Shown here: positions 6,276 through 46,399 of the stretch, piece after piece
Position numbering within the stretch: the first letter of the stretch is position 1
Layout of the letters: each line of letters begins with the position of its first letter
Origin: Acidimicrobiaceae bacterium
GTDB lineage: Bacteria > Actinomycetota > Acidimicrobiia > Acidimicrobiales > RAAP-2
DNA: 64,000 bases
Assembly (NCBI GenBank): GCA_003158855.1
Contig: PMLJ01000018.1
Span: 82,165 to 146,164 of the forward strand
Reading direction: 5' to 3'
Notes under the pieces: generated by a model
Told to the model about the DNA's origin: nothing
The model's input: the letters and a program-made list of their open reading frames with translations, nothing else
Databases searched by the model: none
Program-made: the position numbers and the translations under genes

Positions 6276-6350
6276 CCTAGCCTTTCGCGCCATCGGAGGA
6301 CCTAGCAGGAAGTTCTACTAAGTTTGAGAGTTCTACGCACAAGGAGCACC

Positions 6351-7274
6351 GTGGCAAAGAAACCACCCGCCAAGCAACCACCCGCCCCGACGACGACCGG
6401 TCGCCCCGCGGGTCTCTTCACTTGGATCGCAGTCGGCCTCGTCGTCGTCGTCGTGGCCGGCCTCGTGATCATCAAGGTAGTGAGCGGATCGCCGACCACC
6501 ACGAAATCCAGCGGTTTCCAGCCCACCGATGCCACCACCGTCTCGGAGCTGACGACGATTCCCGCCTCGATCTTCAATACCGTGGGCATCACCTCGCCGG
6601 TCGCCTCGGTGACCCCGCCAATTGAGTTGAAGAACCAACCAGCGCTCACCGCGACGTCGTCGAGCGGCGCCACCCTTCCCGAGGTCTTCTACCTGGGTGC
6701 CGAATACTGCCCCTATTGCGCGGCCCAGCGCTGGCCCACGATCATCGCCCTCAGCCGCTTCGGCTCGTGGAAAGGCCTCGGCAACACGACCAGTTCGTCA
6801 GTTGACGTCTACGCGAGCACGCCAACCTTCACCTTCTGGAAGTCAACCTATTCGTCAAAGTACCTCGTCTTCAAGAGCATCGAGGAACTCAACAACGTCT
6901 ACAACGCGTCGACCAGCCCTCCGTACGGAAAGCTCCAGACGCCGACCAAGGCTGAACAGGCCATCTTCGCCAAGTACGACACGTCCAAGTACATCCCCGG
7001 CATGACCGCCGCCGATAACGGATCGATTCCCTTCATCACCATGGGCAACAAGTTCGTCATCTCGGGTGCGAGTTACACCCCCGCCACACTCTCGGGCCTC
7101 ACGCGCGGCTCCATTGCCAGCGGCCTGAAGGACTCGTCGAGCCCCGTCACCGACGCGATCATCGCCTCGGCGAACTACCAGACGGCGGCGCTCTGCAAGC
7201 TGACGAACCAGCAGCCGAGCACGGTCTGCAACACGTCGGGCGTGCTCGCGGCGAAGAAGGCCATGAAGCTCTAG
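6351..7274 (+). CDS. DUF929 membrane-anchored thioredoxin-like protein
   Basis: 307 residues from GTG 6351, directly preceded by AAGGAGCACC. Short basic, proline-rich cytoplasmic start, one membrane segment (about 24-43), then an extracytoplasmic thioredoxin-like domain with [15 protein letters not shown], a CPYC redox motif at 120-123. DUF929 proteins are predicted disulfide-exchange partners. The VKOR gene starts at the next base after the stop, so the pair probably forms an oxidative folding system outside the membrane: VKOR reoxidises the CPYC protein with quinone. The pairing is an inference from context and family, but a common one in actinobacteria. Confidence 0.85.
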
Positions 7275-7763
7275 ATGGATCGGACCGCTCAGCCAGTTGC
7301 TCGTTGGGCGATCGCACTCACTTTCATCCTCAGCCTCATCGGGCTCGGGATCTCGATCTACATGACGGTGCAGCATTATCGGGGATCGAGTTACCTGGGC
7401 TGCTCGACCGTCGGATTCGAGAACTGCACGAAGGTGACAACCTCGGCGCAGTCCAAGATTCTCGGTATTCCGGTGGCGGTGCTTGGAGTTGTCAGCTACT
7501 CGGCCATGTCGGTGCTCAATTCACCCTGGGCGTGGCGCGCGAAGAACTACCAGGTTCACGTCGTTCGATTCGCGCTTTCCATCGTCTCGATGTGCCTGGT
7601 CTTATGGCTCGTCACCGCAGAGCTACTCATCATCAAGAGCATCTGCCTCTACTGCACGAGCGTGCACGTCATCACCTTCGCCCTGCTCATCGTGCTCACG
7701 ATCGTGAGCCCCACGCAGCTTGGTTGGGTCCGATCAACGGCGCAGGAAAGCCCGCCGCTCTAA
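7275..7763 (+). CDS. Vitamin K epoxide reductase (VKOR) family protein
   Basis: 162 residues with four predicted membrane helices. Cys43 and Cys51 (LGCSTVGFENC) form the shuttle pair and Cys124-Leu-Tyr-Cys127 the quinone-proximal CXXC, the four cysteines required in VKOR homologues. Generates disulfides by reducing a quinone. ATG immediately follows the stop of the DUF929 gene, so the two are translationally coupled. The last 30 nt overlap the convergent whiB gene. Confidence 0.92.
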   Translation: MDRTAQPVARWAIALTFILSLIGLGISIYMTVQHYRGSSYLGCSTVGFENCTKVTTSAQSKILGIPVAVLGVVSYSAMSVLNSPWAWRAKNYQVHVVRFALSIVSMCLVLWLVTAELLIIKSICLYCTSVHVITFALLIVLTIVSPTQLGWVRSTAQESPPL

Positions 7764-10151: not shown

Positions 10152-10847
10152 CTCCAAGCATCCGACGACTCCAAGTCAGAGCCCCAAGAGAGGTTCGAAC
10201 AAAGTCCCATTGCCTCCATGTGAATAGTCACCCCTTTTCAGCGGGATGGTCACCGATCTGCCTTCTGCCCTTCCAGGCTTGCCTTTCCAGAGTCCTATTG
10301 AAGAGCGAATTCTCAGGCAATCATCAGGCAATCATCGCGCTATCGCAACGCCTCACAAGGCTTGAAATGCCCGCCAGCCACTCCAACCGGGAGTTCTGAC
10401 TTCTTGACACGAGGGGTGCAAGGTTGCGCGTTCACGCTCAGGGAGAACAGCATCTTCCCGGGCACCGCCAACGTACACATCTCGGAAACTGGTCGATCGA
10501 CTCAGATTCGGCCCTCGGCCCTCAGCGCTCGTCATCACTACCTACTTTGTCCACGTCGCTCCAGCGAGTACGGAGTTCTCTGATTTACGCTAATCCCCTC
10601 GAGGATTCCACATAGAACTTCCCGGAGCTGATCCGTTGCGCAACTCGAGGGATTCGTGGCGCTGGGGGAGTCCCGTGCGCAAACTCCTGCCACGTCATTC
10701 ACGCTCGCTACCGTTTCGCCAGACTCGGATTCCGGTTCCGGCGCGGGATGTAGTCGTCGGATTGATAATGACCTTCGACCCTGTCCGAAGATTGCGCGAC
10801 ACAACGATGATGATGGTAGTTGTAATCAATATTGAGGCAGGTTGACT
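10152..10847. other. Long intergenic region, no gene seen
   Basis: About 700 nt between the divergent DUF1801 and His-rich genes. Open frames here are short and show no conserved motif. A 10-nt direct repeat, AGGCAATCATC twice, is present near 10315-10337. No RNA structure or pseudogene was recognised. Confidence 0.5.
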
Positions 10848-11237
10848 ATGGGCTGTGGAGAAGACAGAGGAAGAGGAAGCTACGGACTCCCGATCCTGAT
10901 TCCGCTCATTGCATTATTCGGAGCGGTTGCTGCGTTCGGTAGTTGTTTGAAGCATCATCAGGGCCACGAGGGCCATGAGGGCCATGCTCGGCATTGCAAA
11001 GGACATTGCAGAGGGCAGTGTGGTCACGAGGGTCACGAGGGTCACGAGGGTCACGAGGGTCACGGTCCTCACGAGGGTCACGGTCCTCACGAGGGTGACA
11101 CTCCCCACGAGGGTCACGGTCCCAGTCTGGGTCATGAGGACGATCCAATGAGGATTCTCGATAGGCGCTTCGCGAGCGGAGAGATCGACGAGGATGAATA
11201 CCGGCATCGACGTGACGTTCTGAAGCCGAATTCGTAA
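10848..11237 (+). CDS. His-rich GHE-repeat membrane protein with C-terminal SHOCT domain
   Basis: 129 residues from ATG 10848, preceded by AGGCAGG at 6 nt. A Gly-rich start is followed by a hydrophobic segment LPILIPLIALFGAVAAFG (about 13-30), Cys33, then a stretch of about 60 residues made of GHE and GPHE units with 18 histidines and the cluster HCKGHCRGQC. The protein closes with DDPMRILDRRFASGEIDEDEYRHRRDVL, a SHOCT domain. The His/Cys region strongly suggests divalent metal binding (Zn, Ni, Cu or Co) at the membrane; SHOCT domains usually mediate oligomerisation. No metal transporter lies next to it. A membrane-tethered metal buffer is inferred, not shown. Confidence 0.75.
   Translation: MGCGEDRGRGSYGLPILIPLIALFGAVAAFGSCLKHHQGHEGHEGHARHCKGHCRGQCGHEGHEGHEGHEGHGPHEGHGPHEGDTPHEGHGPSLGHEDDPMRILDRRFASGEIDEDEYRHRRDVLKPNS
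11022..11123 (+). repeat. Tandem minisatellite coding for the GHE repeats
   Basis: Four perfect copies of GGTCACGAG at 11022-11057, then two identical 18-nt copies (11058-11075, 11076-11093) and two diverged units. DNA-level identity indicates recent slippage and probable copy-number variation between strains. Confidence 0.9.
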
Positions 11238-11441
11238 TCAACTCAGAGCCGCTTTGCGGATCAAAATGCGTGGCTCCGGCCCGCAATGTTGGGTCTTGCC
11301 TTTCGGCATGAAGTCTGACCCCAATGAGATCGGTATCAACTCGTATTCCCTTGGCGGGCAACCCGGCAAGTTGAATCGTTACATCGTTGCTGGATATTTG
11401 AAGTATTGATCGGCAAACTGCCGCCCGATCCATTACTTCGG

Positions 11442-11810
11442 CTAGTCCAGCTCTGACTTCGCCGACTTGCGATGGACTTGGCGGCGAAGTTGGAAGATAC
11501 GCACCGATCCCAGCGCCAGCACCATGAGCGCACCGAGCACCACCGCCCCAAGCAAAGCCACTGAAAGTGGAAGTGTGCCAGAAAAAGTGAAGAGGCTGAC
11601 CCTCACGTCCTTGGGATTCTGGAAGACAAAGATCAGGATAACGGCCAAGACGATCAACGCCGGAAGTATCCTTATCCACGCCCTGGATGTCCGCGTGGAT
11701 GGAATTGCCTCCGAAGTGGCGACTGCTGGCACTTCGACGGCTACTGGCATGTCTCCTTGCTCGGAGTTGGCTAAGGGTGCAGCACTCTCATCATCTGCCT
11801 GTTCTTCCAT
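11442..11810 (-). CDS. LapA-domain (DUF1049) membrane protein
   Basis: 122 residues from ATG 11810: an acidic, Ala-rich N-terminus of about 45 residues, then two membrane helices with the LapA/DUF1049 pattern RILPALIVLAVILIFVFQNPKDVRVSLFTF and ALLGAVVLGALMVLALG, ending with a basic tail RIFQLRRQVHRKSAKS. LapA-type proteins help assemble lipopolysaccharide in Gram-negatives; in actinobacteria the role is unknown. Start uncertain: the frame is open to 12002, and no strong ribosome site is visible before 11810. Confidence 0.65.
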   Translation of the reverse strand: MEEQADDESAAPLANSEQGDMPVAVEVPAVATSEAIPSTRTSRAWIRILPALIVLAVILIFVFQNPKDVRVSLFTFSGTLPLSVALLGAVVLGALMVLALGSVRIFQLRRQVHRKSAKSELD

Positions 11811-29328: not shown

Positions 29329-31284
29329 CTAGTGAGATTGCTCCGGCTGAGGATTCTCCAAAGAGGAGCCTTCGATTCTCCCTCCGCTCGTGGCAAGTTT
29401 CCAACTCGCGAGTCGGCGCAGCAGATTCATCTTCTTCAACTGGTGGCTACTCATCCGGCTGATGATGTCGTCCAATGCCCCGACCGCTTCGGCAATATAC
29501 GGGCCCTTGTTCAACATGACGCATTCAGCGCGTCCCGCCATCGCCGCGTCCGAAACTTCCGCACGCGAGGGCTGACCTGTCTTGGCCATTTGATCGAGCA
29601 CCTGGGTCGCCCAGATGACCGGGACGTGGGCTGCGTCGCACAGCCACAACATCTCCTCTTGCACTTCGGCGAGGCGCTCGAAGCCGCACTCGACCGCCAA
29701 GTCACCTCGAGCCACCATGACTCCAATTCGTTTTGAGGCCATCGCCGCAAGCAGCATCTCCGGTAGCGCAACGAAGCCCCGAACCGTCTCGATCTTGAGC
29801 ACGATGCCAATCCCGTCGCCGCCGAGCTCTCCCAGGTGGGATTGCAGCGAGGCTACGTCAGACGAACTCTGGGCGAAGGAGAGTTCGACGAGATCGGCGT
29901 GGCCAACCACGAAGGGAAGGATCCGCTCGTCATCGGGTCCGATCGCAGGAAGACGGAGGTCGCTGTCGGGCACGTTGATCCCCTTCTCAGCCCGAAGCTT
30001 GGAGCCCCGAGGCGAAGCCATCGTGATCCGAATGTCGGCCTCGGTAGGCCGTGCCGCAATCACCACCCCTCCGATCTTCCCGTCGTCGAAGAAGACCCGG
30101 TCATCGACTTCCAATGAATCAAACACTTGAGGCATCGTGCAGCCAATTCTCAAGATGGTCGGCGACCGTCCCTGCTCGACGGCCCCGGGGCTGAATCCGG
30201 TACCCCCATGCTCGTTCGACGCTGCGGGCGTGAGATCTGCGGTGAGCGTCAGAGTGTCATCGACGCGAATGACTATTGCCTGCTCGAGCGCGGGCAGCGA
30301 TCCAACCGTTGCTGCTCGATGGTCCGCCGTGGTCAAGGTGGTCCCGGTGCCGAGATACGTGGTGTCGGCTACCTCGATCCAGACTCCGGCGTCGTCGATC
30401 CGTGCTACCTCCATGGTTCTGGGAGAGTCCCGGGTGTCTCTCAATCGAATCTGGTCGCCTACTGCCAGACCAGCGAGCCACTCGGCAGGGACTGGGATCT
30501 CAATGGTTCCACTCACTCGAAGGCCCGCATCTGGACTCGTCTTGTCCGCGTCGACCAGCCGCGCGCTCGCGGGTGACCGCGTTCGACCCAACGCATCGCG
30601 TAGCGGACGAAGCCGTACAACTCTCGGTCCCGGTTCGACGGGACCAGTTCGCAGTTTCGGCCCTGGAAGATCCATGAGGATCGGACAGGGCCGCCCCATT
30701 TCTTGTGCCGCCCGTCGAATGTTGCTCGCCATTCGTTGCCATTGCTCGGGACCGTCATGGGCGCAGTTGATTCGAGCGCAGTCCATGCCATTCTCGATGA
30801 GATTCGCGACCAGTTCATAGTCATCGGCAGCCTCACTCGGCATGGTGACCAAGATTCGCGTGGAGCGCCCAGAGCGCAGCGGACCCAGGAGGGCCAAGGT
30901 GTTCGCTTGCAGAATCGCTCGGCCTTGCCAGAAACTGACCGCCGACTCGGTTCGGCGCGGATCTCCATCACTGGTCATCATGTGCAAGTTGTCAATAACT
31001 CGTTCGAGCGTGGTTATGACGTGTTCTTCAGTCCGACCAAGTGATGAGAGGCCCAACTCCGCGAGTGAGTCCTGGAGTTCACGCAAGTCGTACTGACGCA
31101 GGGTGAGGTAGTCAATGAGGTTTGCCGCACTCTGGCGATGCCCGAGGCGGACACGCTCAAAGACCGACGCATACTCTCGGTGACGCCTCCGCATCTCGCT
31201 ACGAAGCGACTCCAACTGCTTGATGAGTTCCAGCACAGATGGGCGGGTTGCGAGCGGCCTGCTGGTGTCAAAGTCGGGTGGCAT
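29329..31284 (-). CDS. Large pyruvate-kinase-like protein with N-terminal helical domain
   Basis: 651 residues. Residues 1-135 form a predicted helical, coiled-coil-rich domain with many Arg and Leu. A pyruvate-kinase barrel then starts (STRILVTMPSEAADDYELVANLIENGMDCARINCAHD, PCPILMDLPGPKLRTG). The B domain is enlarged by insertions (about 225-400), and the barrel resumes with VFFDDGKIGG, LPAIGPDDERILPF, LKIETVRGF (catalytic Lys), VMVARGDLAVECGFERL, ATQVLDQMAKTGQPSRAEVSDAAMAG. The C-terminal allosteric domain of canonical pyruvate kinase is absent. The barrel keeps the Mg and phosphate ligands, so phosphotransfer chemistry is plausible, but glycolytic function is not assured. Monocistronic. 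Confidence 0.8.
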   Translation of the reverse strand: MPPDFDTSRPLATRPSVLELIKQLESLRSEMRRRHREYASVFERVRLGHRQSAANLIDYLTLRQYDLRELQDSLAELGLSSLGRTEEHVITTLERVIDNLHMMTSDGDPRRTESAVSFWQGRAILQANTLALLGPLRSGRSTRILVTMPSEAADDYELVANLIENGMDCARINCAHDGPEQWQRMASNIRRAAQEMGRPCPILMDLPGPKLRTGPVEPGPRVVRLRPLRDALGRTRSPASARLVDADKTSPDAGLRVSGTIEIPVPAEWLAGLAVGDQIRLRDTRDSPRTMEVARIDDAGVWIEVADTTYLGTGTTLTTADHRAATVGSLPALEQAIVIRVDDTLTLTADLTPAASNEHGGTGFSPGAVEQGRSPTILRIGCTMPQVFDSLEVDDRVFFDDGKIGGVVIAARPTEADIRITMASPRGSKLRAEKGINVPDSDLRLPAIGPDDERILPFVVGHADLVELSFAQSSSDVASLQSHLGELGGDGIGIVLKIETVRGFVALPEMLLAAMASKRIGVMVARGDLAVECGFERLAEVQEEMLWLCDAAHVPVIWATQVLDQMAKTGQPSRAEVSDAAMAGRAECVMLNKGPYIAEAVGALDDIISRMSSHQLKKMNLLRRLASWKLATSGGRIEGSSLENPQPEQSH

Positions 31285-31962
31285 GGGAACTCATCTCGAT
31301 CGATCAGTTATCAACTCGCCGGACACGGATCCTCCCCGATGCCTACGAGCAACAACTTGATCCTCGCCGAAGTCCGGACCTTAAGCAAGGGCCCAAGGTC
31401 CCTCATCCCGTCGAAGAAGCGGTCCTCTCCCGTGCACACCTTTCGTGGACCAAATCCCTTGGAAACGCTGGTGGTTGCACGCCCTTGCTCGCTTTGGATC
31501 CTTTCATCCCACGTTCGAACCGGCCACACCGCTCTTTGTCACCGATGGAAGTTCCCTCGAGTCGCGGGGGGTGTTCGTGCTCGACTGCCTCGTCGGTGGC
31601 CTCTCAATCGAGCGTGCGTCGCGGCGTCGAGGGTGAACGGCGAGATGTCAAGTAGACGTCCGGCGAGACGATAAATCCAGCGACACCGGCGACCATGAGC
31701 GTGACTGCGACGGCGGACAGTTTGAATCACTGATTTGAACGACACTCGAATTCCGTGCCGTCGCCGCCCAGTACATGATGGCGCCAACCACCACTCGAAT
31801 TTCAAACCCGCGGACGTCGACGCTGGCAACCAAGTGCGTCACATAGGTCAAGCCGTCGAGTGGACTCCACGTACAAGCTGACGACCCGATTGACGTGGAT
31901 GCCGGTGAACTCCTGGGCGATCGTATTGCCAGTCTTGAACTCCGAGAAGTGAGGGCTCCGGC
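31285..31962. other. Long intergenic region, possible decayed gene on the minus strand
   Basis: About 680 nt between divergent genes. On the minus strand two overlapping frames near 31700-31950 carry coding-like stretches (SEFKTGNTIAQEFTGIHVNR in one, TYVTHLVASVDVRGFEIRVV in another), which could be halves of a frameshifted gene of no family I recognise. Nothing else is supported. Confidence 0.3.
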
Positions 31963-46257: not shown

Positions 46258-46399
46258 CTACCCGCGATCCTAAAGGCCTTCGCCCCCCGGACCCGCAGAT
46301 GAGCCCGCCAACGAGCTCGCGAACCAATTCCTGCGTGGTCAGCAAGTTGACCAGTGACCTTGTGCCCTAACGGACCCCCGCAGAACTGGAGAATCATTG
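46258..46399. other. Upstream region of the radical SAM locus
   Basis: No gene. Contains the imperfectly spaced inverted repeat TGGTCA-6 nt-TGACCA near 46337-46354, a possible operator. Confidence 0.3.

Follow-up and report, generated by a model that had tools for sequence, protein, structure and literature searches.

A 129-residue protein with an MGCG start, a hydrophobic helix, a His/Cys-rich arm and a SHOCT hairpin is encoded at positions 10848–11237 of the forward strand (stop codon included) of the window, which is the whole 64,000 nt stretch of DNA that was analysed, located on contig C19 of a 2.7-Mb genome in 50 contigs (G000). Its gene lies behind a box of the DevR/DosR/OsdR type, and relatives with the same box occur in other genomes of the genus. 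The parts of the protein are known and their combination is new. We tentatively read it as a metal buffer, small and anchored in the membrane, that belongs to the DevR (low-oxygen/dormancy) regulon and serves under low-oxygen or NO stress, and put the probability of this reading slightly below even.

The gene, its protein and its relatives

Open reading frame calling puts the start at TTG 10842, while ATG 10848 is the start that matches the relatives. All features of the protein are given on the forward strand. The hydrophobic helix, which includes Cys33 (residues 16–34; 10893–10949), is placed by hydropathy and by an AlphaFold2 model, with the helix starting at residue 16 or 17. It is followed by the His/Cys-rich arm (residues 35–98; 10950–11141), recognized by composition and predicted to be disordered, and by the SHOCT hairpin (residues 99–125; 11142–11222), placed by a Pfam match and the model. 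Within the arm, the sequence contains a Cys cluster, HCKGHCRGQC (residues 49–58; 10992–11021), next to a tandem array of 9-nt and 18-nt units coding for GHE and GHGPHE (11022–11122), found by TRF. There are 18 His and 3 Cys in the 65-residue linker, and 19 His and 5 Cys in the whole protein, so the sequence-only reading was right in placing 18 histidines and the HCKGHCRGQC array between the helix and the SHOCT domain.

Over residues 99–125 the match to Pfam SHOCT (PF09851) reaches 32.8 bits, above the cut-off of 27, and places the protein among the SHOCT proteins; no other Pfam domain in it is above its cut-off. Hydropathy, composition and this score bear out the layout proposed earlier, of a membrane helix, a His/Cys arm and a SHOCT tail in one frame. 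The earlier statement that no named family has this combination also holds, in that a search of NCBIfam returned 0 families for it and SHOCT alone is recognized in Pfam. No paper joining 'SHOCT domain' with 'histidine-rich' was found in the open literature. The AlphaFold2 model, built from 15 relatives, has helices at residues 17–34, 100–110 and 115–125 and an unstructured arm; confidence is low for the model as a whole (mean pLDDT 60, pTM 0.29) and high only in the SHOCT part (10-residue means of 91 and 94).

A syntenic copy is present in G078, where 3.1 kb is shared at 90% DNA identity. Between the two copies, the 96 nt of the SHOCT part contain a single, synonymous difference, compared with differences of 16–18% in the 250 nt upstream and 300 nt downstream, and because of this contrast we conclude from the alignment that the reading frame is under selection. 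These are the two closest species, and their arms differ by one 18-nt indel, with 16 of the 18 changed codons altering the residue. A scan of 10500–11600 for sigma70-type promoters found 0, with 0.5 expected.

In one uncultured genus of Acidimicrobiia type, full-length or near-full-length relatives occur in at least 15 of the 99 genomes searched (G000, G077, G078, G087, G089, G091, G093, G096, G102, G105, G106, G111, G113, G140 and G153), a minimum figure, as a limited number of candidates was scored per genome. In an order-wide sample of 397 genomes, with at most 11 candidates scored in each, a long stop-free match at E 1e-8 or better was seen only in two members of this genus, G000 and G077; another long match, from G363, is interrupted by two stops. 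As judged from these searches, the family is genus-level. In L144 and L146, which are diverged relatives, the SHOCT match stays under the Pfam cut-off of 27, at 24.5 and 25.6 bits, respectively. When the neighbouring reading frames of 17 regions (13 family genes and four second-copy stretches) were clustered by BLASTP, no metal gene recurred beside the family genes, which counts against the metal buffer reading. With the family gene and frames overlapping it set aside, the most widespread neighbour was an aldo/keto reductase, named by Pfam from the G153 copy and present in seven regions, close upstream of the family gene in some and elsewhere in others; we draw no support from it.

G113 also has another family-like gene (G113:C117:3456-3817), which codes for 118 aa; an exact box lies 77 nt ahead of the match. 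Second copies were also found at L035:10088-10267 plus L037:1-60 (the end of C38 and the start of C47 in G000), at L039:814-1092 (G085) and in L041 (G091, minus strand). They have the same box and N-terminus, carry PGPDKAPGPHEG repeats, and have a TAG stop ahead of a decayed SHOCT stretch. Between species they share 97–98.5% DNA identity over about 470 nt, which exceeds the 80% identity of the G000 and G085 DevR-like proteins and so suggests that the second copy was moved by transfer. The C47 piece adjoins a gene whose product matches HTH_38 and, weakly, rve, and is a likely transposase.

The DevR-type box, a candidate regulator and other box-bearing genes

The box ATGACCTTCGACCCTG (10768–10783, forward strand), 80 nt ahead of the start codon, is a block common to the upstream regions of the relatives and has 0 mismatches to RTGACCTTNGNCCCTG. 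Scored against GKGACYTTNGNCCCT, a pattern chosen after the shared block had been seen, a box is present at −73 to −80 in all 15 family genes, with 0 mismatches in four, one in nine and two in two. Over 3200 trials with shuffled upstream sequences, one mismatch was reached in 0.03% and two in 1.4%. The exact form of the box occurs 244 times in the 99 genus genomes, against 13 for the reversed pattern. In the host genome 48 sites match a looser form of the box and 10 match the reversed control; some are palindromes that were scored on both strands, and many of the boxes fall within genes or ahead of unidentified reading frames. Three sites in the same genome fit the strict form GACCTTNGNCCCTG; the third, C29:275105, was not counted as regulatory, as a six-frame reading places it apparently inside a gene on the opposite strand. 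The box ahead of the gene resembles the OsdR sites of Streptomyces, which in the available part of one report include AGGGACCTTCGGCCCC at −53 and CGGGACCTTCGGCCCT at −80 (PMC5069765).

A DevR link as a general SHOCT trait is unsupported: a box with up to two mismatches lies upstream of 9 of 80 SHOCT loci, two of which (L055 and L056) are family members, against 3.8 expected from mononucleotide shuffles. Among other or diverged TM-SHOCT loci of the home family, a box was found in 10 of 26 against 0.5 expected; the ten include the family members L144 and L146, and the 26 were reached by dropping L152, L155 and L156, where the SHOCT motif was not found, and by counting L157, which has no upstream sequence.

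A candidate regulator in G000, encoded on contig C12, is a response regulator that scores 204 bits to M. tuberculosis DevR (3c3w), with the next best at 122, and is identical to it over AEKTVKNYVS in the alignment. In the adjoining kinase the GAF domain has its best match to 2vzw, which we take to be DosT (137 bits), then to DevS 2y8h (112 bits), and HHPPM is aligned, a stretch that presumably holds the haem-ligand His. The host carries both a DevR-like regulator and a haem-GAF kinase like DosT/DevS. A DevR homologue was detected in all 15 family holders, and 72 of the 84 other genus genomes have one as well, so that its presence fails to distinguish holders. A second kinase, at L224:2504-4441 (G000:C29), combines a FixL-like PAS domain (70 bits), in which a His aligns with what we assume to be the haem-ligand position, with a DevS-like catalytic domain, and is by layout a FixL/DevS chimera.

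Ten box-near proteins, hand-picked for a nearby start codon, are HypA, cytochrome b561, XdhC/CoxI, pyruvate kinase, malic enzyme, bd oxidase subunit I, Usp, a 4Fe-4S protein, a phosphoribosyltransferase and a P-type ATPase; the box lies 46–287 nt from the starts of genes that include those for bd oxidase subunit I, Usp, HypA, the 4Fe-4S protein, pyruvate kinase and malic enzyme. As annotated, the box-bearing genes fit a low-oxygen regulon, and Usp genes are given as DevR targets in the available part of PMC5069765. No paper joining DosR and SHOCT was found in the open literature, and among the matches listed for DevR together with Acidimicrobi, none was, judged by title, about a DevR regulon. 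Since the gene follows a DevR-type box, oxygen or NO would be a better first guess than metal for the inducing signal; the sequence-only reading had picked up neither this box nor the genus-level family.

Several other loci were noted. Elsewhere in the window, the box GGGACCTTGGGCCCT (31387–31402, minus strand) lies about 100 nt ahead of an unusual pyruvate kinase gene of the PRK14725 type (29332–31284, minus strand), and a weaker box, GTGACCTTGTGCCCT (46354–46369, forward strand), lies about 200 nt ahead of the gene for a radical SAM/SPASM protein. At 6324–7763 (forward strand) a DUF929 protein is directly followed by a VKOR protein, perhaps, we assume, as a disulfide-forming pair. Two P-type ATPases are encoded near a Usp gene and several boxes at L223:10841-16476 (G000:C8); the second scores above the cut-off for heavy-metal ATPases, and its C-terminus weakly matches an iron-sulfur repair (RIC) model.

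The arm, the membrane side and the proposed role

The make-up of the arm is kept among the relatives and its sequence is not. Over the 15 relatives it contains 19.6% His and 6.4% Cys, with at least two arm Cys after residue 34 in 13, whereas the linkers of 21 other TM-SHOCT proteins of the home family, from hand-chosen loci, contain 14.9% His and 0% Cys, and those of 74 named TM-SHOCT proteins, mostly of Streptomyces and comprising those of the 78 loci L057–L134 that passed filters, contain 2.0% His and 0.06% Cys (helix borders for composition and charge were set by a simple hydropathy window). Retention of His/Cys richness while the arm sequence changes would be expected if metal ligands matter, and the arm is predicted from its composition to be a metal-ligand site. 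Other TM-SHOCT proteins of the genus (L149, L145, L153 and L018) have His-rich linkers without Cys, for example HHHHEHNYHAHNYHAH; a box with one or two mismatches lies upstream of L149, L153 and L018, and none at L145.

In the window DNA, TRF reports a 9-nt unit at 10956–10986 and 11022–11082 and an 18-nt unit at 11033–11122, with a best score of 124 and 84–86% matches. None of 200 synonymous-codon shuffles within the gene reached the observed score (mean 76, maximum 116), so the minisatellite coding proposed in the sequence-only reading goes beyond chance, but its description as near-perfect was too strong. Repeat units differ by relative, being GHE and GHGPHE in the window, GHGAHE in G078, HE in G113, HDQ and HD in G111, and a 66-nt unit in G077. 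Six arrays, picked for repetitive-looking proteins, were shuffle-tested. Because 0 of 200 shuffles matched the observed score in each of four (window, G078, G077 and the second-copy gene of G085), these arrays are, on this test, DNA duplications. The HE repeat of G113 (L014) and the HD/HDQ repeat of G111 (L053) were equalled by 196 and 14 of 200 shuffles, respectively, and recent DNA duplication is unsupported for both. Persistence of the G113 repeat in the protein with mixed codons suggests selection on its residues.

These patterns bear on whether the arm might do no more than separate helix and SHOCT, as a flexible spacer built of repeats, its His richness the product of minisatellite drift. 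The arm is indeed the fastest-changing part in the comparison with G078, repeats arise easily in it, and some TM-SHOCT proteins have linkers that are short and poor in His; however, drift would not predict the G113 repeat, nor the His/Cys richness shared by 15 relatives whose arm sequences are unrelated, and we consider a mere spacer improbable. Less probable still is a nickel store for [NiFe] hydrogenase, comparable to Hpn for the nickel enzymes of Helicobacter. HypA was detected in four of the 99 genus genomes at E 0.001 or better and above cut-off in two, and it speaks for such a store that these two, G000 and G105, both hold the family and that hypA of the host genome is also behind a box. 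HypA above cut-off is absent, though, from 13 of the 15 holders, which is too many misses even with incomplete genomes; the protein is accordingly not classed as Hpn-type, and a nickel- or hydrogenase-only role is disfavoured as a general account.

The membrane side of the arm was assessed from charge and from the residues around the helix. Net charge is more positive after the helix than before it in 14 of 15 relatives (the window protein is tied), which argues for a C-terminus inside the cell. Lipoproteins carry their modified Cys in a lipobox. A lipobox-like motif, [LIVMFWSTAG]2-x-[AGS]-C, is present at residues 26–33 in 14 of 15 relatives (AFGSC, with Cys33, in the window protein), so that the arm could be outside: the helix would be a signal peptide cleaved ahead of Cys33, and the arm and SHOCT would catch or shield metal at the cell surface. 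Lys or Arg occurs within the first seven residues in 8 of the 15, as would suit a lipoprotein, but not in the other 7, and the charge balance points the other way, as does a proposal that SHOCT-like domains lie at the inner membrane face, made in the available part of PMC11237479. We regard a lipoprotein as unlikely, though as the likeliest of the three alternatives.

For the metal buffer that we prefer, the gene, family, box and regulator are backed by sequence, and we infer induction, tethering, metal binding and docking. DevR would switch the gene on as oxygen falls or NO/CO rises, and a single helix would tether the protein, its C-terminus more likely inside. The disordered arm beside the membrane would offer many weak, exchangeable sites for divalent metal (Zn, Ni, Cu or Co). 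SHOCT may dock the protein to a partner, consistent with the inner-face proposal (PMC11237479, in part); a 2013 study reported a test in which SHOCT failed to form oligomers (PMC3581485). The buffer would hold metal that has been released from the respiratory and metal enzymes remodelled by the same regulon, or that these enzymes need, and arm length could shift through tandem duplication. A Haloferax SHOCT membrane protein is induced by silver, according to the available part of PMC10694973, a weak hint, by analogy, towards metals. It is possible, if doubtful, that the DevR regulon includes a metal reservoir of its own, a membrane-tethered SHOCT protein whose arm has been repeatedly rebuilt by tandem DNA duplication in different species, such that a fast-evolving minisatellite length sets metal capacity at low oxygen.

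Comparison with known systems

A disordered His-repeat stretch beside the membrane is found in CDF (cation diffusion facilitator) and ZIP transporters, where it is thought to buffer or sense zinc. There the His-rich loop belongs to a multi-helix transporter, whereas the window protein has a single helix and SHOCT. Other SHOCT proteins (PF09851), as far as described in the available parts of PMC3581485 and PMC11237479, share the C-terminal bihelical domain and the common small TM-SHOCT layout; unlike them, the window protein has a long His/Cys arm, a genus-specific N-terminus and a DevR-type box. SHOCT function was unsettled at its 2013 description (PMC3581485, in part), and a DevR-type box at a fixed distance before a SHOCT gene gives a concrete condition under which one SHOCT group should act.

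The DevR/DosR regulon of M. tuberculosis and the OsdR regulon of Streptomyces share with the genome studied here the box, a DevR-like regulator, a DosT/DevS-like kinase and Usp among the box genes; in the available part of PMC5069765, no SHOCT protein is named in either. If metal binding is demonstrated, the DevR regulon gains a metal-handling part.

By analogy, the closest working parallel is Hpn. In the available part of PMC4671568, Hpn and Hpn-2 of gastric Helicobacter are, like the window protein, small and His-rich, and gastric Hpn carry CC motifs that parallel its Cys cluster, a likeness of kind and not of descent. No membrane helix, SHOCT or DevR control is described for them there, and Hpn serves nickel enzymes, of a sort that most family holders seem to lack. 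Hpn of H. mustelae has 11 GEHHH motifs thought to be born of short tandem DNA duplications (PMC4671568, in part), and the arm of the window protein would, if it binds metal, be an independent parallel, a metal arm grown in the same way.
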